In this document: in pieces, positions 1,597 to 13,841 of the stretch
How positions within the stretch are numbered: the stretch's first letter is position 1
Layout: every line of letters begins with the position of its first letter
From: a virus
Length of the DNA stretch: 22,397 nucleotides
IMG/VR virus record: IMGVR_UViG_3300021963_000717
Location: 1-22,397 of that record
Reading direction: 5' to 3' (one strand)
The notes under the pieces: model-generated
What the model saw: the letters and a program-made list of their open reading frames with translations, nothing else
The model's database searches: none
What the model was told of the DNA's origin: nothing
Made by a program: the position numbers and the translations under genes

Positions 1597-1808
1597 TTCT
1601 CACCCCTTGCTCTGATGGCGGCGGCGCACAACTGCCCATCAAGACTTGGTGCTTCTTCAAGGCACACCTTCGCACACTCCTCACGCTCATGCTTGGAAAC
1701 AAGGGCGGCGAAGCGTTCAAGTTCTTTCAGATACAACACGCGATAGGTGTCGTATTCGTACGGCAATTTAGCCTCCTTCGCCATCTTGATAATGTCGTCT
1801 CTATCCAC
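1593..1808 (-). CDS. Small hypothetical protein (MDRDDI.. / AAAIRARGEK type)
   Basis: A 71-aa protein starting at GTG 1808. The start lies in an 8-base overlap with the end of the upstream gene (GTGGATAG), and its Shine-Dalgarno AAGGAG is encoded by that gene's last codons. The pattern, an N-terminal MDRDDIIKMAKEA, a central LERFAALVSKHEREECAKVC, and a C-terminal AAAIRARGEK, is common in short orphan ORFs of proteobacterial phages; I know no function for them. It is helical with three cysteines and no membrane segment. Confidence 0.65.
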   Translation of the reverse strand: MDRDDIIKMAKEAKLPYEYDTYRVLYLKELERFAALVSKHEREECAKVCLEEAPSLDGQLCAAAIRARGEK

Positions 1809-2025
1809 CGTTCTTCTCCTTTAGTTTGGCTTCGACGGCTTCAATCAAATAAACACCCCAATCCCTAGTCCTTAATAATTCCTCATAATCATCATCCGTC
1901 AGCCCAACCCATTCCTTCTTTTGTGGTTTGCTTGAAATACAGGTAACCGTATAAGGCCTGCCACACTGGCAACTCCATGCCACAGGCCCGTCTGCTGGTG
2001 TCTTTGCGTTTTTGTTTTCAGCCAT
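1801..2025 (-). CDS. Small hypothetical protein with WVGLT module and repeated C-tail
   Basis: A 74-aa protein starting at ATG 2025 with AAGGAG seven bases upstream. The N-terminal half has two cysteines in CQCGRPY and one in CISSK. The C-terminal half has the WVGLTDDDYEELL element, followed by a tail VEAKLKEKNGG that is almost the same as the tails of the two genes upstream of it in the operon. The N-terminal cysteines could bind a metal, but only three are present. Function unknown. The tail also encodes the next gene's ribosome-binding site. Confidence 0.6.
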   Translation of the reverse strand: MAENKNAKTPADGPVAWSCQCGRPYTVTCISSKPQKKEWVGLTDDDYEELLRTRDWGVYLIEAVEAKLKEKNGG

Positions 2026-2317
2026 GATTCTTCTCCTTTAGCTTGGCTTCAATGGCTTGAACAGTGTAGGTCTGTACTGCACTGTCCTTGCTTCGTTGCC
2101 CCCTATAAACCGTTCCATCCCCGTAGCAATTACCGTCATCTTTTTGCGATGTGATGTAAACGCAAGGCAACGCCACTGGCTCTTGCTCTGTCTTTAGTGC
2201 TTGTCGCAGGACGGCGATAGCTTCGCCGTAATAGTTTTCTTCGCCCGTCTCCATTAACATTTCTGCGCCTGCATCCTCCAGCACTTCTATCGCTTCTTCA
2301 ATAGCTTCTCTATCCAT
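2018..2317 (-). CDS. Small hypothetical protein with repeated C-tail
   Basis: A 99-aa protein from ATG 2317, preceded at the standard distance by AAGGAGAAGAATC, which is encoded in the end of the upstream gene. It begins with an acidic helical segment (MDREAIEEAIEVLEDAGAE) similar to many short phage ORFs. The middle is variable (YITSQKDDGNCYGDGTVY), and it closes with IEAKLKEKNHG, identical to the tail of the preceding gene. It overlaps both neighbours by 8 bases. No known domain or function. Confidence 0.6.
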   Translation of the reverse strand: MDREAIEEAIEVLEDAGAEMLMETGEENYYGEAIAVLRQALKTEQEPVALPCVYITSQKDDGNCYGDGTVYRGQRSKDSAVQTYTVQAIEAKLKEKNHG

Positions 2318-2540
2318 GATTCTTCTCCTTTAGCTTGGCTTCGATGGCGCAAGCAAAATCACCCCAGTGCTGATTTCCTGAATGGATCTCTTGTATTTCA
2401 TAAGCCGTCAGCCCAACCCATTGCTTCAGCGCCAATCGGCGCAGTTCGACGGCTGATTCCCTGCCCGTGCTATTGCTTATTCGTCCTTGCACAAACTCAG
2501 CGTCCAGCGCATCAGCCAGCCGCAGGGCTTCTTTGCTCAT
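2310..2540 (-). CDS. Small hypothetical protein with WVGLT module and repeated C-tail
   Basis: A 76-aa protein. ATG 2540 is the start because it overlaps the helicase stop as ATGA; a longer in-frame reading extends into the helicase gene. The first half (MSKEALRLADALDAEF...GRESAVELRRL) is a helical pattern frequent in short phage ORFs. The second half has the WVGLTAYEIQEIH element, also present in the gene at 1801-2025, and the shared tail IEAKLKEKNHG. No function recognised. It is the first of three consecutive genes with the same ending. Confidence 0.65.
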   Translation of the reverse strand: MSKEALRLADALDAEFVQGRISNSTGRESAVELRRLALKQWVGLTAYEIQEIHSGNQHWGDFACAIEAKLKEKNHG

Positions 2541-3847
2541 TTCAGTGCCTCCATCGCAATATCGCTTAGTTTGCGTTTGTCGTGCAGCGCGGTCCATATG
2601 CGCTCATCGACGGTATCTTTAGTCATCATGGCGTAGACCCACACGTCGCGCTGCTGGCCGGATCGATGCAATCTTCCAACGGTCTGTTCGTAAAGCTCAA
2701 GTGACCACGGCAGGGACAGAAAGACCATGTGGCAGCCGCCGAACTGCAAGTTAAGGCCATGACCGGCGGATTTTGGATGCACCGCCATAAGCGGAATGTT
2801 GCCAGCGTTCCATCGTTCAATGGCGTCAGGGTCGTCCAAAACGGTAAGATTTCGGTATCGTCGTTTGAGTTCATCAAGCTCCTCTTTGTATTGGTAAACA
2901 AGGATCGTGTTAGCGCGTTGATTCTCAGACAGCAAATCATCTAACGCGTCAAACTTGTGCGGGCTAAACCAGACAGGCTCAGGCGAGTAAACAAACCCTG
3001 ACGACATCTGCTGTAGCTTCTGCGTGACAACCGCAGCGTTCTGAGCGATAGCCTGAGCGTCGGGGAACTGCACCACGAAGTCACGCTTCATCGCCTCGTA
3101 TGGCTCACGGTCGTTCAATTGCACGTCTATTTGCACCACATGACAGGGCGGCAGTTTGTCCTTGTACTCGCCTGGCTCTAATACAAAAGTAGCAGGTTTG
3201 ATGCGCTGCATGACGCGCTCTAGCGCACCAGGTAGTGGCGTCCAATCGTCAAACCCAGCGTAAGTATTAAGACTAAAGTATTGCTGCATAAACGCGCCCT
3301 TCGAGCGTCCGAGCAACTTTTGATCGATGATCTTGCACTGACCGAAGACGTCCTCAAGACCGTTGCTTGTGAACGAGCCGGTCAGACCCCAACGGATGTT
3401 GAACTGATCAATGACCTTGTGCAGCGCTTTGAATCGCGCGCCACTGGGGTTCTTAAGTTTGGTTAGCTCATCGAACACGATGCCATCAAAACTGCTTAAG
3501 TCTTGCTCGGCAAGCCATTGGATGTTGTCGTAGTTGATCACAACGATCTTGGCGTCGCTCTCTAGCGCCTGCTTACGCTGCGCGGGGGTGCCCACGGCCA
3601 CGGCAACGGTATGGTACTCGGCCCACTTAGGTGCCTCGATGGGCCAGACGTCGGTACAGACGCGCTTAGGCGCGAGCACTAAGAATCGACGAACATGAAG
3701 TCCGTACAACATATCATCAATGGCCGTGAGCGTGATCGCAGTCTTGCCTGCACCTACGGGCGCGAGCACCATCGCACGGTCGCGCTCGTACAAGAAGTCA
3801 GCGGCCTGTACTTGATAAGGTCTAAGTTTTTTCCCACGCATCAACAT
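2537..3847 (-). CDS. SNF2-family (SF2) DNA helicase/translocase
   Basis: A 436-aa ATP-dependent dsDNA translocase of the compact phage SNF2 type. It starts LRPYQVQAADFL (Q-motif-like). Motif I is APVGAGKTAIT with K35, motif II is DELT at 126-129, motif III is GLTGSFTSN near 154-162, and motif VI is QTVGRLHRSGQQRDVWVY near 385-403, whose arginines complete the ATPase. The length is right for a bare two-RecA-lobe core. ATG 3847 and ATG 3841 are both possible; AAGGAAG sits six bases before the second and GGAG eight bases before the first. It overlaps the VRR-NUC gene by about 25 bp, a pairing common in phages, and probably works with that nuclease on phage replication or recombination intermediates. 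Confidence 0.9.
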   Translation of the reverse strand: MLMRGKKLRPYQVQAADFLYERDRAMVLAPVGAGKTAITLTAIDDMLYGLHVRRFLVLAPKRVCTDVWPIEAPKWAEYHTVAVAVGTPAQRKQALESDAKIVVINYDNIQWLAEQDLSSFDGIVFDELTKLKNPSGARFKALHKVIDQFNIRWGLTGSFTSNGLEDVFGQCKIIDQKLLGRSKGAFMQQYFSLNTYAGFDDWTPLPGALERVMQRIKPATFVLEPGEYKDKLPPCHVVQIDVQLNDREPYEAMKRDFVVQFPDAQAIAQNAAVVTQKLQQMSSGFVYSPEPVWFSPHKFDALDDLLSENQRANTILVYQYKEELDELKRRYRNLTVLDDPDAIERWNAGNIPLMAVHPKSAGHGLNLQFGGCHMVFLSLPWSLELYEQTVGRLHRSGQQRDVWVYAMMTKDTVDERIWTALHDKRKLSDIAMEALK

Positions 3848-4088
3848 CTTCCTTGCTCCATAAACAAGCGTACCGTTGCCCTAGCCGTGCCATGTCGTCA
3901 GCAAACACCTTCTGTAGCGGCGACAGACGGCCACCAGGCGCCTTAAGTTCAATGAACCACACCACACCATCAGGCAGCACGACGATGCGGTCTGCGACGC
4001 CACGGTGGGCGGGGCTAACGAACTTGTAGGCAATGCCGCCCATCGCTTTAACGCGCTTAACGAGATACGCTTCAATGTGTTTTTCCAT
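3822..4088 (-). CDS. VRR-NUC domain nuclease
   Basis: An 88-aa single-domain PD-(D/E)XK nuclease. Motifs: an N-terminal MEKHIEAYLVKRVKAMGG with the conserved E, then GVADRIVVLPDG with D33, then FIELKAPGGRLSPLQ with E47 and K49 forming the E-x-K pair and Q59 of the SPLQ motif. This is the full length of stand-alone phage VRR-NUC proteins, which resemble the FAN1 nuclease domain and act on structured DNA such as junctions. I take ATG 4088 rather than the TTG at 4109. No Shine-Dalgarno precedes ATG 4088, but a good -10 box ends only six bases upstream, so the transcript may be leaderless. It is the first gene of the leftward operon. Confidence 0.9.
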   Translation of the reverse strand: MEKHIEAYLVKRVKAMGGIAYKFVSPAHRGVADRIVVLPDGVVWFIELKAPGGRLSPLQKVFADDMARLGQRYACLWSKEDVDAWEKT

Positions 4089-4094
4089 GACTGC

Positions 4095-4123
4095 ATCATA
4101 GCCTGTCAAAAACTATTTGACAA
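4095..4123 (-). promoter_or_regulatory. Leftward sigma70-like promoter for the VRR-NUC/SNF2 operon
   Basis: On the - strand: TTGTCA (4118-4123), a 17-base spacer, then TATGAT (4095-4100); each box matches the consensus at five of six positions. The expected start point is about the A of the VRR-NUC ATG at 4088, leaving no room for a ribosome-binding site. Confidence 0.6.
4104..4122. promoter_or_regulatory. Candidate operator, perfect inverted repeat over both -35 boxes
   Basis: TGTCAAA-N5-TTTGACA: seven-base arms at 4104-4110 and 4116-4122. The right arm contains the -35 boxes of both divergent promoters and the left arm lies in the leftward spacer. A dimeric repressor bound here would shut both operons. 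The binding protein is unknown; the winged-helix protein at 1061-1372 is one candidate. Confidence 0.55.
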
Positions 4124-4144
4124 GTTATTTATTTATGCTACAGT
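4117..4144 (+). promoter_or_regulatory. Rightward sigma70-like promoter for the replication operon
   Basis: TTGACA (4117-4122) is a perfect -35 box; TACAGT (4139-4144) is a fair -10 box (four of six) at a 16-base spacing. Transcription would start near 4151, giving a short leader with AAAGGA before the ATG at 4174. The -35 box overlaps the leftward promoter's -35 box by five bases, so RNA polymerase should not occupy both at once. Confidence 0.55.
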
Positions 4145-4173
4145 GAAGTCTCAATCAACTAAAGGACAGTCAA

Positions 4174-4356
4174 ATGGATGATGACTACATTTCAATCGAT
4201 GCCCGCCAGGGCGACACCATCAACCTCAGCCTGCACAGCGACGGCATCTGGGTATCGATGTTCAAAAGCTCCTGCTACGCCTCTACGATGCTGACCATGA
4301 AGCAAGCCATCGAGTTGCGCGACGCTATCAATAAACTGTTAGAGGTGGACGCATGA
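4174..4356 (+). CDS. Small hypothetical protein, first gene of the replication operon
   Basis: A 60-aa acidic protein (MDDDYISIDARQGDTINLSLHSDGIWVSMF...). The ribosome-binding site is strong (AAAGGA about seven bases before the ATG) and sits in a leader sequence shared with genes in the other leftward operon. Residues 6-32 look like short beta strands and 40-57 like a helix (MKQAIELRDAINKLLEV). It ends in an ATGA overlap with the nuclease gene, so it may serve to load ribosomes for that gene. No family recognised. Confidence 0.7.
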   Translation: MDDDYISIDARQGDTINLSLHSDGIWVSMFKSSCYASTMLTMKQAIELRDAINKLLEVDA

Positions 4357-5468
4357 TTCACTCGAAGATCGTTGGCGGTTCGACCGCCAAGCGTGTGATC
4401 AACTGCCCTGGCTCGGTGGCGCTTGTGCAGCAAATGCCACCACAGGTCGAGAGCAAGTACGCAGCAGAGGGTACGCTTTTGCACGCGTGCATGGAAGACC
4501 TACTCGGCACGTTAACACTGCCTGAGGTTGCATCTAAGCACAACCTGACCGATGAGCAGATCGAGAAGCTCGCCTTTTGCGTCCAGGCGCTTGAGGATAT
4601 TGATCCTGATCAGACGATGGAGTTCGCGCAAGAGGTGCAGGTCGAGTTTGAAAACGTCAAAGGTCTTGAAGGCGTCTTCGGTAACGTCGATCTGATCGGT
4701 CGCATCGGTCGCACAGCCGTGGTCCTTGATTGGAAGTTTGGCGACGGTGTGATCGTTGACGCCGAAGAAAACTACCAAGGTCTCTTTTACGCTGCCGCTG
4801 CGATGGCAACCAACAAGCTCTCGTGGGTGTTCTATGGCGCAGACGAGATAGAAATCATTATCGTGCAGCCGCCTGCCGTGCGGCGCTGGGTGACGACTTT
4901 TGAGCGTGTTGCTGCCTTCCAAGCAGAACTGCAAACCGCTGTAACGCTCGCTACCAAACCCAACGCACCGCTTGAGATCGGCGATTGGTGCCGCTGGTGT
5001 ACTGGTAAGCCTGTCTGTCCTAAGATGACCGGCGAGATCGATCGCGTGGTGCATCTAAAGCTAGAAGCACTTGCGCCTGATCAATTAGCGTCGGCGCTCG
5101 ACATGGCTGATAAGCTAGAGTCCTTCATCGCAGAGGCGCGCAAGCTAGCGTATAACCGGCTTGAGAAAAACATGCCCGTGCCGGGGTATAAACTTGTATC
5201 GAAGCGCGCAACGCGTCAGTGGGCCGATGAGTCTAAGGCGTCTGCTGCGCTTGCGGGTCTTGGCGTCAGTCAGAATGAGTTGTATAAGAAGGAATTAATT
5301 AGCCCTGCTCAAGCTGAGAAGGTGCTAAAAAAGAGCAAGCTAGCACTGCCCGATGATCTTGTCGTGGCTGTGTCGAGCGGCAGCACGTTAGCGCCGGAGA
5401 GCGATCCTCGGCCTGCCGTGCTTAACGTGGGTATGCACTTAACCGCTGCCCTATCTAAACTCCAGTAA
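4353..5468 (+). CDS. DUF2800-type PD-(D/E)XK nuclease with Cas4/AddB-like Fe-S cysteines
   Basis: A 371-aa protein matching the phage DUF2800 family (PF10926) in length and opening (STAKRVINCPGS). The nuclease signature is complete: GTLLHACMED (40-49, the RecB-type histidine motif), GNVDLIGRI with D113, VVLDWKFG with D126 and K128, and Q142GLFY146 as the Q-x3-Y motif. Four cysteines are placed as in Cas4 and AddB: C18 near the N-terminus and C213-x2-C216-x5-C222 after the nuclease core, which would bind one 4Fe-4S cluster. The expected activity is exonuclease on DNA ends, perhaps making single-stranded tails for recombination or replication. It starts in an ATGA overlap with the 60-aa gene and sits just before the probable ssDNA-binding protein. 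Confidence 0.82.
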   Translation: MIHSKIVGGSTAKRVINCPGSVALVQQMPPQVESKYAAEGTLLHACMEDLLGTLTLPEVASKHNLTDEQIEKLAFCVQALEDIDPDQTMEFAQEVQVEFENVKGLEGVFGNVDLIGRIGRTAVVLDWKFGDGVIVDAEENYQGLFYAAAAMATNKLSWVFYGADEIEIIIVQPPAVRRWVTTFERVAAFQAELQTAVTLATKPNAPLEIGDWCRWCTGKPVCPKMTGEIDRVVHLKLEALAPDQLASALDMADKLESFIAEARKLAYNRLEKNMPVPGYKLVSKRATRQWADESKASAALAGLGVSQNELYKKELISPAQAEKVLKKSKLALPDDLVVAVSSGSTLAPESDPRPAVLNVGMHLTAALSKLQ

Positions 5469-5479
5469 AGGAAATCGTG

Positions 5480-6130
5480 ATGTCTAATTTAGTAACGTTC
5501 AGTACAGCAAATCTTCCCTCCGTGACAAGTCTTACGACCGCACTGCGTGCGCTTGAGAAGGACGTCGGTGCAGCAGGCGTCGTCATCCTTAAGATGGATA
5601 AGACCGGCCATTGGGTGTTCGGCGCTGACCAGACTGAAGTCGAGGATGGTTCAACGTGGGCAGTCAATCCTTTCTCGTTCGTCCACGGCTACATTGCGTG
5701 GGGTGACGGTGAGGTGTTAGCCGAGAAGATGGTATCCGTATCGCAACCACTGCCTGAAACCAACGTCGCCCCACCAGGCGCCAAGAAGGGCTGGGAAGCT
5801 CAAGTTGGTATGTCGCTCAAATGTCTTACGGGCGACGATGAGGGGATGGAAGCGCGCTACACCACCACGTCAGTCGGTGGTAAGCGCAGCGTACAGACGC
5901 TCGCGCTAGCGATTGCCGCGCAGGTCGAGAAGGATCAATCAAAGCCTGTGCCGGTCGTGCGGCTGAAGAAGGACCACTACACACACAAGTCTTATGGCAA
6001 GATATTCACGCCAGTATTTGAGGTTGTGGAGTGGGCAAGCATGGACGGTAAGACCGAGGAAGTGGATGCACCTGAGGAGGCCAACCCCGCCGCCGAAGAT
6101 GCGCCGCGTCGTCGTCGTCGCACAGCCTAA
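5480..6130 (+). CDS. Probable phage ssDNA-binding protein (uncharacterised family)
   Basis: A 216-aa protein. I start at ATG 5480 (MSNLVTFSTANLPSVTSL), eight bases after AAGGAA, rather than the GTG three bases before. The body is predicted beta-rich (VVILKMDKTGHWVFGADQ; WAVNPFSFVHGYIAWG; GWEAQVGMSLKCLTG), with aromatic and basic residues as in OB-fold proteins, and ends with an acidic stretch then RRRRRTA. Similar proteins occur between DUF2800 and polymerase genes in other phages; to my knowledge they are unnamed, and this is not DUF2815. The ssDNA-binding role is inferred from position and composition only. An intrinsic terminator follows 12 bases after the stop. Confidence 0.6.
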   Translation: MSNLVTFSTANLPSVTSLTTALRALEKDVGAAGVVILKMDKTGHWVFGADQTEVEDGSTWAVNPFSFVHGYIAWGDGEVLAEKMVSVSQPLPETNVAPPGAKKGWEAQVGMSLKCLTGDDEGMEARYTTTSVGGKRSVQTLALAIAAQVEKDQSKPVPVVRLKKDHYTHKSYGKIFTPVFEVVEWASMDGKTEEVDAPEEANPAAEDAPRRRRRTA

Positions 6131-6356: not shown

Positions 6357-8303
6357 ATGAGCGTCCTATGGGTGGATTTCGAGACACTCAGCCGCTGTGA
6401 CCTGACGACCAAAGGCGTTTACAACTACGCGCAAGACGCAAGCACGGACGTGCTGTGCATGTCCTACGCGTTTGATGATGAGGACGTTGTGACGTGGACG
6501 CCTGAGCTACCGTTTCCTAAGCGCGTGCGCCAGCACACCGGCCAGATACGCGCGCATAACGCAGCGTTTGAGCGTCTGATCTTTTGGTATGTGCTGCACA
6601 TCAACTACGACCTTGAGCAGTTTTACTGCACGGCTACCCAAGCACGGGCTAACTGTGCGCCTGGCTCGCTTGAGGACGTGGGGCGGTTTGCAAGCGCTGA
6701 CATGCGTAAAGACTACCGTGGCTCGCAACTGATCAGGCGCCTATGCTTGCCGCAGGCAGACGGCAATTTTTACCGCGACGAGGCGTTGTTTGCTGAGTTA
6801 GTGGCTTATTGCGAGCAAGACGTCCGCGCCATGCGCGCTATCTCTAAGGCCATGCGTGATTTGTCGGCTGAGGAGCTTGCCGACTATCACGTCAACGAGC
6901 GCATCAACGATCGTGGCGTGTTGGTCGATGTGGCGCTGTGCAAGGCAGCGGTGCAGTATGCAAGCGATGAACTCATCGAAATCGAGCAGATCGTTGCCGA
7001 CGTGACGCAGGGCGCCATTGCGAGCGTGCGCAGTCCTAAGATGAAGCAGTGGGTCATGGACCGCGTAGGACCGCAGGCGTTGGCGCTCATGGCGTCGCAT
7101 AAGGACGGCGAGAAGAAGTATTCGATCGATAAGACCGTGCGGGCTAACTTGCTTGCGATGGATGATCCTGAGCAAGTGCCGCCTGATGTGGCCGAAGTCA
7201 TCCAGTGCGCTGACGACCTATGGGCGTCGAGCGTGGCGAAGTTCAGCCGCTTGGCTGCGCTTGCTGACGATGAGGATCATCGGGTGCGCGGTGCGTTTGT
7301 GTTTGCCGGTGGGTCGGCCACGGGCCGAGCGTCGTCCTACGGCGCTCAGGTGCATAACTTTACGCGTAAGTGTGCTGACGATCCTGAGGCTGTGCGTACT
7401 GCGATGGTGCGCGGTCATAAGATCGTGCCGACCTACGGGCGTCGCGTCACGGACGTGCTTAAGGGGATGCTACGCCCTGCGCTGACGCCTGCGCCTGAGC
7501 ATGTGCTGATCGTCGCTGATTGGGCGGCGATCGAGGCGCGGATGAACCCGTGGCTGTCAGCGCACGCTACGTCTGAGGCTAAGTTGGACTTGTTTCGCAC
7601 GGGCGCAGACATCTACAAACACAACGCCAGCCGGACGTTTAATGTGCCGGTGGATGCGATCGATAAAGAGCAACGCCAGATTGGCAAGGTCCAAGAGTTG
7701 GCGTGCGGGTACGGTGGCGGCGTGGGGGCGTTTGCTTCGATGGGGCGCATCTATGGTGTTAACTTACCGGAGGCTGACAGCAGGCGCATGGTGGAGGCGT
7801 GGCGACGCGCTAACCCGTGGGCTGTGCATTACTGGCAGGCGCTTGAGACGTCGTACATGCGCGCGATGAGGAACCCAAAGTCTGAGTTTAAGGCTGGCCG
7901 TGTGACGTACTATTTTGACGGTCAGCATCTCTGGTACGCGCTGCCGTCAGGGCGCATCCTATGCTACCCCTACGCGCGGCTAGAAGATGATGGCGTGTCC
8001 TATGCCAAGGCGTCATGGAAGCCTGCTGCGGACGCTAAGGAATGGCCCAGAGCGCGGTTATGGAAGGGCTTAGCTGCTGAGAATATCTGCCAGGCCGCAG
8101 CGGCTGACATCTTGCGCGCGTCGCTGCGTCAGCTTGATGGCGTAGTCTTGCATGTGCATGATGAGATTGTGTTAGAGGTGCCAGCGTCTGACGCTGACGC
8201 TGCGGTGGCGATGCTGCATAGCGTCATGTGTACGTCGCCCGCATGGGCAAGCGGTCTGCCCTTAGAGGCCGAAATTAACGTTATGACAAGGTATGGGAAA
8301 TGA
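6357..8303 (+). CDS. Family A DNA polymerase with 3'-5' exonuclease
   Basis: A 648-aa replicative polymerase. The N-terminal DnaQ-like proofreading domain is intact: WVDFETLS (D7, E9), HNAAFE (67-72) and YCEQDVRA (D155). The polymerase domain has motif A VADWAAIEARM (D388), motif B IGKVQELACGYGGG (near 441-454, with the lysine and the YG pair) and motif C HVHDEIVLEV (H601, D602, E603). The typical DYSQIELR of motif A is here DWAAIEAR, as in a known branch of phage polymerases. No 5' nuclease domain is present, as usual in phages. The ATG directly follows the TAG of the 55-aa gene, and its TGA overlaps the primase start as ATGA. Confidence 0.95.
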   Translation: MSVLWVDFETLSRCDLTTKGVYNYAQDASTDVLCMSYAFDDEDVVTWTPELPFPKRVRQHTGQIRAHNAAFERLIFWYVLHINYDLEQFYCTATQARANCAPGSLEDVGRFASADMRKDYRGSQLIRRLCLPQADGNFYRDEALFAELVAYCEQDVRAMRAISKAMRDLSAEELADYHVNERINDRGVLVDVALCKAAVQYASDELIEIEQIVADVTQGAIASVRSPKMKQWVMDRVGPQALALMASHKDGEKKYSIDKTVRANLLAMDDPEQVPPDVAEVIQCADDLWASSVAKFSRLAALADDEDHRVRGAFVFAGGSATGRASSYGAQVHNFTRKCADDPEAVRTAMVRGHKIVPTYGRRVTDVLKGMLRPALTPAPEHVLIVADWAAIEARMNPWLSAHATSEAKLDLFRTGADIYKHNASRTFNVPVDAIDKEQRQIGKVQELACGYGGGVGAFASMGRIYGVNLPEADSRRMVEAWRRANPWAVHYWQALETSYMRAMRNPKSEFKAGRVTYYFDGQHLWYALPSGRILCYPYARLEDDGVSYAKASWKPAADAKEWPRARLWKGLAAENICQAAAADILRASLRQLDGVVLHVHDEIVLEVPASDADAAVAMLHSVMCTSPAWASGLPLEAEINVMTRYGK

Positions 8304-10606
8304 TAAAAAATTTTTTGGAGTTCCTAATCTCTCTTGCGCCTGAGGGCGAGACGCCGCTTATCGTGCGGCAAAAGCCGCAGCTTAAGGACGGTCAGTTGCA
8401 ATTTCACGCTGATGGCGCGATCAAGTGCACATGGCCTGCCCATCTGCCCGACATTAAAAAGATCAAGCCCGATCAGGCGTGGTATGGCAACACGGCGAGT
8501 TTTATCTTAGATCGCTTTGGCGATCACGTGTCGGCATCGGCGGCTAACTGCGAGTACTGTCTGGTGCTCGTGCTCGATGACGTTGGCACCAAGAGCAAGA
8601 CGCCTCCGCTTGCGCCGACCTGGGTCATGGAAACCTCGCCTAATTCGTTTCAGTGGGGTTATGCCTTTGCTGAACAGCCGACCAAGGGTGAGTTTGCTGC
8701 GGCCATGCGCGCGATCGCTGACGCAGGCTACACCGACCCTGGGGCGCTTAACGCGGTGCGTAACTTTCGCTTGCCTGGCTCAGTTAATCTTAAGCCTGGT
8801 CGCAACAGTTTTGCATCGCGTCTGGTCGAGTTTCACCCCGATCGTGACTTTTCGCTCGCTCAGATATGCGAGGCGCTGGGCGTAACGCCTGCTGAGGCCG
8901 ATAGCAGCGGTCCGCAGCCGATCAAGATCGTTGACACAGGTAACGATGACGTGTTCGCGTGGCTCGCCTTGCAGGGTATGGTCGTATCTAAGCCTAACGG
9001 CGAGGGCTGGGCTGGCGTTATCTGCCCGAACCATGCCCAACACACCGACGGTAACCCTGAGGGGCGCTATAAGCCTTCTATGCGCGCGTACTGCTGTTTG
9101 CACTCGCACTGCGTCGATCTTGACACTAAGGCGTTTCTAGCGTGGGTCGCTGAGAATGGTGGCCCTGCTCACGCGCTGGGGCTGCGCGATGATTTGCTTG
9201 CAAGCACCATGCAGACAACGCTTGACAAGCTAGAGCCTAGTAATTTTTTTAGTGATGACGCCAAGAAGGTGATCGAGGAGGTCGAGCGTAAGGAGCTTGG
9301 GCGTGTTGAGATGAAGGGCTGGTTTCAACGCTTTGCTTACATCCAGAGTGATGATTCGTTTTTTGACATGCAAGACAGGCGCGAGGTGCCGCGCTGGGTT
9401 TTCAACGCGCTGTACCGCCATGTGAATTGCACATCGATTAACAGCAAGCGCAAGATCGAAGCGGCGACGTGTTTCGATGAACAGCGTCAGGCCATGGGCG
9501 CACGCACCTTGGTCGGTGTGACCTACGCTGCTGGCGAGTCGATGCTTGTGTCGCGTGACGGTGATGTGTTCGGCAATCGCTGGCGCGATGCGCGACCCGT
9601 GGTTGATAAGACCCTTGTGCGCGATATATCGCCATGGCTTGAGCACTGCGAGCGCCTTGTGCCTGAGCCTAGCGAGCGTGAGCACTTGTTTAACATCATG
9701 GCCTATAAGCTCCAGCATCCTGAGGTCAAGATCAATCACGCGGTGCTGCATGGTGGCGACCAAGGGTCGGGCAAAGATACCATGTGGGCGCCGTTCTTGT
9801 GGGCCGTATGCGGTCCAGGGCTGAAGAATCGCGGATTGCTTGATAACGATACGCTGAACCTCCAGTGGGGGTACCAGCTTGAGTGTGAGATTCTCGTCAT
9901 CAATGAGTTGAAAGAGCCTGAAGCGGCAGCGCGTCGTGCGCTGGCGAACAGACTCAAGCCGATCATCGCTGCACCTCCAGAGATGCTGCCGATTAACCGC
10001 AAGGGTCTGCATCCCTATGACATGCTCAATAGGATGTTCGTGTTGTCGTTTACCAATGACCCGCTCCCCATATCGCTTGACTCGCAAGATCGACGCTGGT
10101 TTTGTATATGGTCGCGCGCGCCTAGAATGGTTGATCGCCAGGCGCAATTGCTTTGGGATTGGTACAAAGCCGAAGGTTTCGTTTCCATAGCGGCATGGCT
10201 CTATCAGCGCGACGTAAGCGCGTTTAATCCTGCTGCAACGCCTGCTTGGACCGAGTTTAAATTTAACTTGATCGAGCACTCCATGAGTACATCCGAATCG
10301 TTCTTGGTTGAGCTTATGCGTAACCGCCAAGGTGAGTTCGCGCGCGGTGTGGTGGGGTCGCCCTTCCATCTGCTGATTGATAGATTGTCCGGTGGCTTGC
10401 CTGCTGGCGTGAAGATTCATCAGGCAGCACTGCTACACGCGCTGAAGGAAGCTAACTGGGTCGATGTGGGCCGATTAGCGTCGTCGGAATATCAGACCAA
10501 GAAGCACATTTTCGCCGTGCCTGAGCTTGCGTCGAAGTTAAGCAAGTCCGAGCTTAGGCGCATGGTGGAGGAAACTGCACCTACCAAGATGGCATTAGTT
10601 AGATAG
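8300..10606 (+). CDS. Primase-helicase fusion (RepB-like primase, zinc site, SF3-like helicase)
   Basis: A 768-aa protein. Residues about 60-180 resemble the RepB-type archaeo-eukaryotic primase: LVLDDVG with D93-D94, TSPNSFQWGY from 112, and RLPGSVNLKPG at 157-167. A zinc site follows: C242-x2-H245, then Y-C265-C266-L-H-S-H-C271. The helicase domain (DUF5906/VapE-like) has Walker A GGDQGSGKDT with K492, Walker B ILVINE (531-536), and VLSFTNDPLPISLDSQDRRW with the conserved arginines near 598. One chain could therefore unwind and prime for the polymerase it overlaps. The acidic primase pair is seen, but I could not fix the third catalytic residue, so primase activity is less certain than ATPase activity. 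Confidence 0.85.
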   Translation: MIKNFLEFLISLAPEGETPLIVRQKPQLKDGQLQFHADGAIKCTWPAHLPDIKKIKPDQAWYGNTASFILDRFGDHVSASAANCEYCLVLVLDDVGTKSKTPPLAPTWVMETSPNSFQWGYAFAEQPTKGEFAAAMRAIADAGYTDPGALNAVRNFRLPGSVNLKPGRNSFASRLVEFHPDRDFSLAQICEALGVTPAEADSSGPQPIKIVDTGNDDVFAWLALQGMVVSKPNGEGWAGVICPNHAQHTDGNPEGRYKPSMRAYCCLHSHCVDLDTKAFLAWVAENGGPAHALGLRDDLLASTMQTTLDKLEPSNFFSDDAKKVIEEVERKELGRVEMKGWFQRFAYIQSDDSFFDMQDRREVPRWVFNALYRHVNCTSINSKRKIEAATCFDEQRQAMGARTLVGVTYAAGESMLVSRDGDVFGNRWRDARPVVDKTLVRDISPWLEHCERLVPEPSEREHLFNIMAYKLQHPEVKINHAVLHGGDQGSGKDTMWAPFLWAVCGPGLKNRGLLDNDTLNLQWGYQLECEILVINELKEPEAAARRALANRLKPIIAAPPEMLPINRKGLHPYDMLNRMFVLSFTNDPLPISLDSQDRRWFCIWSRAPRMVDRQAQLLWDWYKAEGFVSIAAWLYQRDVSAFNPAATPAWTEFKFNLIEHSMSTSESFLVELMRNRQGEFARGVVGSPFHLLIDRLSGGLPAGVKIHQAALLHALKEANWVDVGRLASSEYQTKKHIFAVPELASKLSKSELRRMVEETAPTKMALVR

Positions 10607-11214: not shown

Positions 11215-11483
11215 GGTTGGATTTGAGGGTAAACGGTGAACACGTACCCAAGATTATCGAGTGTTGATCCAGCTATTGATAGCGTTTCGGTTAGTTGATC
11301 GGGCGCGTACTTTTGCAACAGTGCGCGGGCAGCTAGCGCGTGCCGTTCTTCGCAGTTAAGCGCATGATCAAAAGGCACTGTAACCGCCCAAAGGGTTTTG
11401 TTATCGCGTCTCATACTAGCTTTAACGCGTGCGCCTTTGGTGTTAGTGGCGCCGATATATTTAGTGTGGATTGCAATGGGCAT
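11211..11483 (-). CDS. Small conserved phage protein (TKYIGATNTKGARVKA family)
   Basis: A 90-aa protein. ATG 11483 is chosen because AGGA lies nine bases upstream in a leader shared with other genes of this operon; the longer reading to 11522 adds residues encoded by that leader. The opening IHTKYIGATNTKGARVKASMR followed by a strand and YDHALN-like segment (FDHALNCEERHALAARALLQK) is a pattern I know from many short proteins of proteobacterial phages, none with a known function. It ends with GYVFTVYP. Confidence 0.65.
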   Translation of the reverse strand: MPIAIHTKYIGATNTKGARVKASMRRDNKTLWAVTVPFDHALNCEERHALAARALLQKYAPDQLTETLSIAGSTLDNLGYVFTVYPQIQP

Positions 11484-11532
11484 GGTTGATTGTCCTATAG
11501 TTGATTGGATTAGCTGACGCAATGCGCGCCCC

Positions 11533-12213: not shown

Positions 12214-12243
12214 GATTGATTGTCCTTTAGTTGATTGGATTGA

Positions 12244-12429: not shown

Positions 12430-12461
12430 AACTTTCCTTTAGTTGATTGGATTGGATTGTT

Positions 12462-12484: not shown

Positions 12485-12625
12485 TTAAAACTCGGAATCT
12501 AACAGCGCGCAAAATAACGCGATGTCACGCGCATTGAAGGCTGCAAGTACAGCGTCATTCTCAAGCGCGACACAAAACGCGATGTCACGCGCAAGGCACT
12601 CATTAACGAAGTGTATTTTAGACAT
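12485..12625 (-). CDS. 46-aa protein with internal duplication, first gene of the operon
   Basis: A 46-aa ORF from ATG 12625 with AAAAGGGA six bases upstream, too short for most gene callers. It reads MSKIHFVNECLARDIAFCVA and then LENDAVLAAFNARDIALFCA, ending LLDSEF. The element ARDIA.F(C).AL occurs twice, 20 residues apart, and the DNA behind it is an exact 17-base direct repeat (12516-12532 and 12576-12592), so this is a recent in-frame duplication. A TTGGCAAT-type box overlaps its start codon. Function unknown; the helical amphipathic repeat suggests a small protein-binding module. Confidence 0.55.
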   Translation of the reverse strand: MSKIHFVNECLARDIAFCVALENDAVLAAFNARDIALFCALLDSEF

Positions 12626-12656
12626 TGGCAATCCCTTTTTGGTTGTTTGAGTGTTT

Positions 12657-12686
12657 AGTGTAAGGCATTGTTTTGCAGATTGTCAA
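12657..12686 (-). promoter_or_regulatory. Candidate promoter of the second leftward operon
   Basis: On the - strand: a perfect -35 TTGACA (plus-strand 12681-12686), an 18-base spacer, and TACACT (12657-12662, four of six). The start point would be near 12650, giving a leader of about 25 bases before ATG 12625 that contains AAAAGGGA and the TTGGCAAT box. Confidence 0.5.
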
Positions 12687-12794
12687 GTATGGGTCAAATT
12701 GGTAATGGTTTTGAAAGGGGTTAGGTAATAAAAATGGGGCAGATTGCCAATGATTCGGGATTGTAAACGCCTGATTCGACGAGGCTTTTTCGGC

Positions 12795-12888
12795 TATTGG
12801 CAAAATTGTCATGTTTTTCTGAAAAAAAAGTCGCAGATTATTTCTGTTACCTAGCAGCGACTTAAAACGGCTGACAATTTTGCCAATA
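12795..12888. repeat. 17-base inverted repeat with a nested stem
   Basis: TATTGGCAAAATTGTCA (12795-12811) and its exact reverse complement (12872-12888) enclose 60 bases. Inside is a second inverted pair, AAGTCGC (12828-12834) and GCGACTT (12857-12863). A further copy of the outer arm, TTGGTAAAATTGTCA, lies at 13334-13348, immediately before the terminase small subunit start. Confidence 0.8.
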
Positions 12889-12971
12889 TTGCCAAAGCCG
12901 AATCGAGGGCGCCACGTCACCGCGCCCCCTCTTTGCCGGTTTTCTCTCCAATCATTGGCATTTTTGGCTAT

Positions 12972-13057
12972 TCAAAACCAATTGCCAAGATTGCCAATGA
13001 GCAAAGGTCTATTGGCAATCTTGGCAATGTCAAAACCAATTGCCAAGATTGCCAATG
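12972..13057. repeat. Iteron array upstream of the terminase genes
   Basis: An exact 28-base direct repeat at 12972-12999 and 13030-13057 contains ATTGCCAAGATTGCCAAT. Between them, at 13011-13028, the same 18-base core lies in inverted orientation. Cores begin at 12981, 13011 and 13039, close to three helical turns apart. More single ATTGCCAAT or ATTGGCAAT boxes lie at 12624-12632, 12743-12751 and 12888-12895. Confidence 0.85.
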
Positions 13058-13349
13058 GCCCGACGCCCGCGCCGCCCGATCAACCGCGCCACCAGGCACG
13101 CGTCGCCAGGCATGGATCGTTATGCCGATTAGATCAATCAATCGTTCTGTTTGCTAGATCGTTTTTGCTTTTGGCTTTTTGCTGGCGAAGCCCCCCCCCA
13201 GGGCCGACGGCCTGGCCGGTCGGAGCCGGTGGGTCCACAAGAAATTTTTTTTATTTTTAACAGCCTAATAGCAAGCCTGTATACAAAAGTATTAGAATGT
13301 CTTACGCTCGCGTTGTAACGACGCTAGGTCATCTTGGTAAAATTGTCAC

Positions 13350-13841
13350 ATGTTTAAAAGTCTTCCTCTTACAACGCGTGAAATCAAAGCGACGGAAGCG
13401 GTACTGGAGCGCATATACGACGCTGCGTATCTAGGTTTAAAAGAAGATTCGTTGGCGTTAGCAGCAGGGTTGTTACCTGTAGAGTACCGGCTCTTGAAAC
13501 AGCATGACAAAATGGCCGAAATTGCCGAACTCAAGGGACGCGCTGATAGTGAGCGTGAGCACAGCCAGCACATGTTGAACGCTGCGCGTAATGGGGACGC
13601 TAAGGCGGCGCTAGAGATACTGAAGCACACTCACGGCTGGGTCGCCAAGCAAGCCGTTAGTATTGAGGTGGACCAGCGCATCAGCGTGATTGACGCGTTA
13701 AGAGCAGCAGAGACGAGAGTCGATGAAGGTAAAGTAATCGACGTAACGCCACCAAGTGAAAAGCTAACCCATGCAAAAGCCGATATACAGTCCGGAAGAC
13801 GAGCAACTGCTGATGACGCGGTTGTGGTCTCCCGCGATTAA
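13350..13841 (+). CDS. Terminase small subunit
   Basis: A 163-aa protein that would recognise the packaging site and recruit the large subunit. It has an N-terminal helical DNA-binding part (LTTREIKATEAVLERIYDAAYLGLKEDSLALAAGLLPVEYRLLKQ), in which DSLALAAGLLPVEYRLL fits a helix-turn-helix. A central helical oligomerisation part follows (GRADSEREHSQHMLNAARNGDAKAALEILKHTHGWV), then a C-terminal tail. This architecture and the large-subunit gene right after it, overlapping by 71 bases, support the call. The Shine-Dalgarno is weak. The repeat box at 13334-13348 touches the start region, so the gene may be regulated by whatever binds there, possibly by this protein itself. Confidence 0.82.
   Translation: MFKSLPLTTREIKATEAVLERIYDAAYLGLKEDSLALAAGLLPVEYRLLKQHDKMAEIAELKGRADSEREHSQHMLNAARNGDAKAALEILKHTHGWVAKQAVSIEVDQRISVIDALRAAETRVDEGKVIDVTPPSEKLTHAKADIQSGRRATADDAVVVSRD

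Follow-up and report, generated by a model that had tools for sequence, protein, structure and literature searches.

The 85-bp intergenic region at positions 4089-4173 of the freshwater phage analyzed here, whose virus record of 22,397 bases we refer to as the window, contains a predicted pair of sigma70-type promoters that point away from each other and whose -35 boxes overlap. Both the overlap and the gene order around it are conserved over many lineages of related phages, which bears out this part of the initial annotation. The best explanation, which we consider probable, is that the region would act as a compact promoter pair for two divergent replication operons, balancing their expression. 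The stronger feature of the region, however, is one absent from the initial annotation: the mRNA of the first leftward gene, encoding a VRR-NUC nuclease, is predicted to be leaderless.

The leftward operon, on the minus strand, starts with the VRR-NUC gene (3822-4088; phrog_93, 3.8e-28; VRR_NUC, 2.8e-4, below the Pfam cut-off), which is followed by a gene for an SNF2-type DNA helicase (2537-3847), by small genes, and by a gene for a small winged-HTH protein (1061-1372; HTH_11, 2e-5, just under the cut-off). On the plus strand, the first gene of the window is a 60-amino-acid ORF (4174-4356), and downstream of it are located the genes for a DUF2800/PD-(D/E)XK exonuclease (4353-5468; 2.6e-56; phrog_69), a conserved phage protein in the DUF2815 position (5477-6130; phrog_9528, no Pfam match), a family A DNA polymerase (6357-8303) and a primase/helicase-like replication protein (DUF5906; 8300-10606). 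The terminase and P22-like portal genes lie farther to the right of the replication genes, and no tRNA was found. Both arms code for replication or recombination genes, and this gene content suggests that both operons are expressed early. In several close relatives the 60-amino-acid ORF is swapped or absent while the promoter and the leader are retained, so that the first rightward slot appears to be exchangeable. Within the leftward arm, three neighboring small ORFs (1801-2597, minus strand) end in nearly the same terminal peptide, EAKLKEKN, and the ribosome site of the next gene falls within the repeated ORF end; they look like duplicated gene cassettes.

The putative rightward promoter consists of the -35 hexamer TTGACA (4117-4122, plus strand) and, after a 16-bp spacer, the extended -10 box TGC-TACAGT (4136-4144). 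The putative leftward promoter consists of the -35 hexamer TTGTCA (4123-4118, minus strand) and, after a 17-bp spacer, the -10 hexamer TATGAT (4100-4095). The two -35 boxes overlap by five bases, as the initial annotation reported. In a simple scan of the first 8 kb, these promoters were the best two promoter-like sites, with 10 of 12 matches each, and the total number of such sites was at chance level (6 found versus 4.5 expected). A weight-matrix scan of both strands ranked them first and third among all sites of the window, and identified four strong promoters, at 4117 (plus), 4123 (minus), 12686 (minus) and 13313 (plus), each near the head of one of four apparent transcription units.

In scans of viral contigs that used the VRR-NUC protein, a VRR-NUC alignment, the DUF2815-position protein and the HTH protein as queries, 212 loci had divergent VRR-NUC and DUF2800 genes, a number that includes repeated retrievals of one contig. 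Grouping on the 70 bp that precede the nuclease start (>20% difference) gave 63 lineages, whose counts are not independent because of shared ancestry. Most lineages that have the nuclease as first leftward gene follow a common plan: an extended -10 box (rightward), an A/T-rich spacer, TTGTCAA or TTGTGCAA, a T-tract spacer, a -10 box (leftward), 6-7 nt, and the ATG. When the best rightward -35 box of each lineage was scored against the leftward one, the two overlapped by at least 3 bp in 28 of the 36 lineages having a good leftward -10 box at 6-7 nt, compared with 15% when the upstream part was shuffled; about a quarter of the lineages with such a -10 box thus lack the overlap by this scoring. 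The mean promoter scores were 8.7 and 9.6, versus 5.4 and 4.8 in shuffles. The hexamers vary among lineages (TTGTCA/TTGACA, TTGTGC/TTGCAC, TTGCGC), indicating that it is the overlap itself that is kept and not a fixed word: it is retained where TTGTGC replaces TTGTCA, and also in lineage L259, where another gene sits under the leftward promoter. Among 29 distinct TTGTCA relatives (one of them with TTGTCC), columns 4117-4123 show 0-1 changes each, versus about 6 per column in unconstrained neighbors. In the L100 and L117 classes the geometry slides, and a -35 box overlaps the -10 box of the other promoter instead. Such an overlap of -35 on -10 is seen in L100, L117, L214 and similar relatives, and in L214 the outward-facing extended -10 boxes form TAGCACA-N11-TGTGCTA. 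The sole close named record with the divergent region is the complete genome MW202483 (uncultured Podoviridae sp.; 52-61% protein identity); in phage BcepC6B the same genes all point in one direction. Once the relatives are compared, the overlap of the two predicted promoters greatly exceeds chance expectation, and this comparison shows the promoter elements, their spacing, their overlap and the distance between the leftward -10 box and the ATG to be shared features of the group.

The leftward -10 box ends 6 nt ahead of the ATG of the VRR-NUC gene (4086-4088, minus strand), and the leftward mRNA should therefore be leaderless, with its predicted start exactly at the first codon. When gaps of 0-30 nt were examined, the best -10 box fell 6 or 7 nt before the VRR-NUC start codon in 35 of the 63 lineages. 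Counted by clusters, this spacing was present for VRR-NUC in 27 of 55, versus 2 of 163 for four control genes of the same loci (DUF2800, 0/57; DUF2815-position, 0/31; polA, 2/69; helicase, 0/6). A Shine-Dalgarno-like motif precedes VRR-NUC in 16% of cases, versus 82% for DUF2800. In L259, the gene that precedes the nuclease places its own ATG at the equivalent position relative to the -10 box. It could be argued that the leftward promoter is accidental, that VRR-NUC is expressed from another start or transcript, and that the rightward promoter alone is real, given that there is no normally spaced Shine-Dalgarno sequence before the VRR-NUC ATG and that position 4109, farther upstream, carries an in-frame TTG. 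However, this TTG is not conserved among relatives as a start, VRR-NUC protein conservation begins at the Met of the ATG at 4088, and the distance between the -10 box and the ATG is the same in many lineages and is not a feature of the control genes, all of which make an accidental leftward promoter very improbable. Elsewhere in the window, a second gene that looks leaderless from its sequence is that of the terminase small subunit (TTGTAA-19-extended TAAAAT, 6 nt, ATG 13350; 13313-13352, plus strand), and several relatives have a similar spacing between the -10 box and the ATG of this gene. Conserved, predicted leaderless starts in a group of uncultured phages whose transcription is apparently unstudied would aid the annotation of gene starts.

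The predicted rightward leader (4151-4173, plus strand) carries the Shine-Dalgarno sequence AAAGGA at 4161-4166. A near-identical leader, CAATCAACTAAAGGACA(A/G)TCAA, is present ahead of four genes (4152-4173, plus strand; 12216-12237, about 12430-12450 and about 11480-11510, minus strand), and is a repeated translation-initiation element. An RNA element or structured leader was rejected: there was no Rfam match, and positions 4151-4260 show no unusual folding (z -0.56). Another repeat, ATTGCCAA, has 9 of its 10 copies in the window within the largely non-coding stretch 12625-13060, where several are paired 9 bp apart and within an 18/18 perfect inverted repeat; these copies resemble replication-origin iterons or an array bound by a protein.

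The initial annotation also described a perfect palindrome, TGTCAAA-N5-TTTGACA, covering the -35 boxes, and this is indeed present at 4104-4122 (arms 4104-4110 and 4116-4122, separated by AACTA at 4111-4115). By itself it is not above chance: shuffling the 85-bp intergenic region yields a perfect 7+7 inverted repeat (spacer of at most 12) 7% of the time, a dinucleotide shuffle test gives p = 0.10, and the window contains 29 such repeats. A search allowing up to 3 mismatches gave a single match in the window, which is at chance level and argues against the operator of a regulon. As for its conservation, the palindrome is not lost in the closest clade, but it is not maintained across relatives with normal gene order; in its perfect form it is mostly confined to the clade near the window, and it is no more than a clade-specific extra. 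The idea that each lineage generally has a palindrome of its own was rejected as well, because the best inverted repeat of each lineage, compared with shuffles, was weak overall (mean z 0.86; p below 0.05 in 9%). In the TTGTCA relatives, conservation extends past the promoter boxes to the core GTCAA...TTTTTGAC, and not to the rest of the palindrome. Within the second arm, the core at 4105-4112 has 0.75 changes per column, versus about 6 in the flanks (29 relatives), indicating that something beyond sigma contacts is conserved in this block of the leftward spacer, which the promoter elements do not account for. Because of this core, the palindrome may possibly play an operator role, for which the case is weak.

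The idea that a dimeric HTH protein encoded at 1061-1372 uses the palindrome as its operator, silencing or tilting both promoters and so forming a genetic switch, has several observations in its favor: the arms of the palindrome cover both -35 boxes and are almost invariant in the near clade, the block 4105-4112 is conserved although the sigma factor should not read it, dyad symmetry is raised at the palindrome axis over lineages, and the HTH gene belongs to the leftward operon of the window clade. Homologs with about 50% identity are also present in L013 and L257, and L013 (53% identity) has a one-off palindrome. On the other hand, no HTH homolog was found in G026 or G027 (38 kb), whose promoters keep the core (GTCAAAAACTTTTTGAC or GTCAAGAACTTTTTGAC), and the palindrome is single-copy in the window. 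Furthermore, its partner positions change without compensation (4116 varies and 4110 is fixed; 4104 varies and 4122 is fixed), and the TTGTGC lineages have not gained a matching TTGCAC at the partner site. Control by this protein through the palindrome is thus not borne out by the relatives. The switch itself fares no better: replication and recombination genes are present in both operons, and searches for PF00589 (integrase) and PF01381 (HTH_3) gave no match in 25 IMG/VR records (G000 and 24 related ones, many of them fragments) or in the complete MW202483, while the integrase-bearing BcepC6B matches both. A lambda-type lysis/lysogeny switch, which would have divergent repressor genes, an integrase and lysogeny functions, was discarded on the basis of these records and of the gene content of the two arms. 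Altogether, we regard an operator-based switch as unlikely. A reading that deserves more credit, though somewhat less than even odds, concerns the palindrome only and is compatible with a balancing promoter pair: the conserved core may be a by-product, one arm being the shared -35 box and the other a conserved T-tract of the spacer, TTTTTGAC, that would act through DNA shape or sigma contacts on the strength of the promoter. T-tracts persist at this place in lineages lacking the palindrome (CTTTTTTTC, CTTTTTTAC), and the main symmetry axis of the region over lineages is the shared -35 box with A/T-tracts on both sides (z 7.7), the palindrome axis being secondary (z 5.4; both values overstate significance because the lineages share ancestry). 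However, the GAC past the T-tract is conserved too in many TTGTCA lineages, for which a T-tract gives no reason.

Returning to the promoter pair as a device for balancing the two operons, positions 4089-4173 would be their control region, and we infer that sigma70-type RNA polymerase of the host would read both promoters from opposite strands of one 7-bp sequence, TTGACAA. Leftward transcription would start at the A of the VRR-NUC ATG, generating a leaderless mRNA for the nuclease, the helicase and the small genes, and rightward transcription would start near 4151, generating an mRNA with a Shine-Dalgarno leader for the DUF2800 exonuclease, the polymerase and the primase. With one stretch of DNA serving as both -35 boxes, the polymerase would occupy the region in one direction at a time, and therefore the strength of the promoters would set the ratio between the operons. 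RNA polymerase has a footprint of about -55 to +20. The predicted footprints on the two promoters overlap by about 48 bp, which makes simultaneous binding unlikely and mutual exclusion of the two promoters plausible. Bidirectional promoters of low activity in Escherichia coli hardly competed unless one of the two directions was made stronger (PMC12825309), and hence the effect of exclusion on expression would depend on promoter strength. Since both operons serve replication, ratio setting seems likelier than switching.

The best matches in genome collections are metagenome-assembled contigs labeled Rhodoferax and other Betaproteobacteria; as these may be phage contigs binned there, a host among these bacteria is only suggested. 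A broader, and rather doubtful, proposal is that a wide clade of apparently non-lysogenic freshwater podoviruses uses the shared -35 box as a conserved ratio-setter, with mutually exclusive firing coupling the leaderless nuclease/helicase operon to the leadered exonuclease/polymerase operon, and with an adjacent regulator half-site that varies by lineage. In the relatives, the -35 boxes still overlap although the hexamer sequence has changed; these phages provide a deep, natural alignment of two such divergent promoters, and the effect of sharing a -35 box is therefore directly testable.

Hexamers with a spacer of 15-19 bp are present on both strands of 4089-4173 and the shared bases are conserved; judged by its sequence, the region is a further case of an already known type, divergent sigma70-type promoters with overlapping core elements. 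Like the immunity regions of the phages PY54 and lambda, it places two divergent promoters of a phage within a short stretch between genes, but those phages are temperate and the regions have divergent repressor genes, whereas here both arms are replication operons and the searches yielded neither an integrase nor a cI-like repressor. The PY54 mRNAs of cI and of cro both lack a leader and begin with the AUG (PMC4488713), whereas here the leftward arm alone looks leaderless. The promoters Pr and Pc of plasmid pLS20 are likewise two overlapping divergent promoters on one DNA stretch (PMC4207663); there, however, each -35 box probably coincides with the -10 box of the other promoter and the known regulator Rco loops the DNA, whereas here the -35 boxes overlap and the regulator is only a candidate. 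Bidirectional promoters that share a -10 box also offer one site to polymerase in two orientations, with steric competition possible (PMC12825309, PMC10268837), but their starts are 7-25 bp apart, usually 18, as against about 63 bp for the starts predicted here, and our region falls outside that class, as its -35 boxes overlap rather than its -10 boxes. Finally, leaderless genes of Deinococcus have been described as marked by a -10 box lying 6-7 bp before the ORF (PMC12340547). The VRR-NUC gene has this same signature, a -10 box ending 6-7 nt ahead of the start codon, and differs from the Deinococcus genes in that it belongs to a phage, has a near-consensus -35 box, and is accompanied by several other genes with Shine-Dalgarno leaders.
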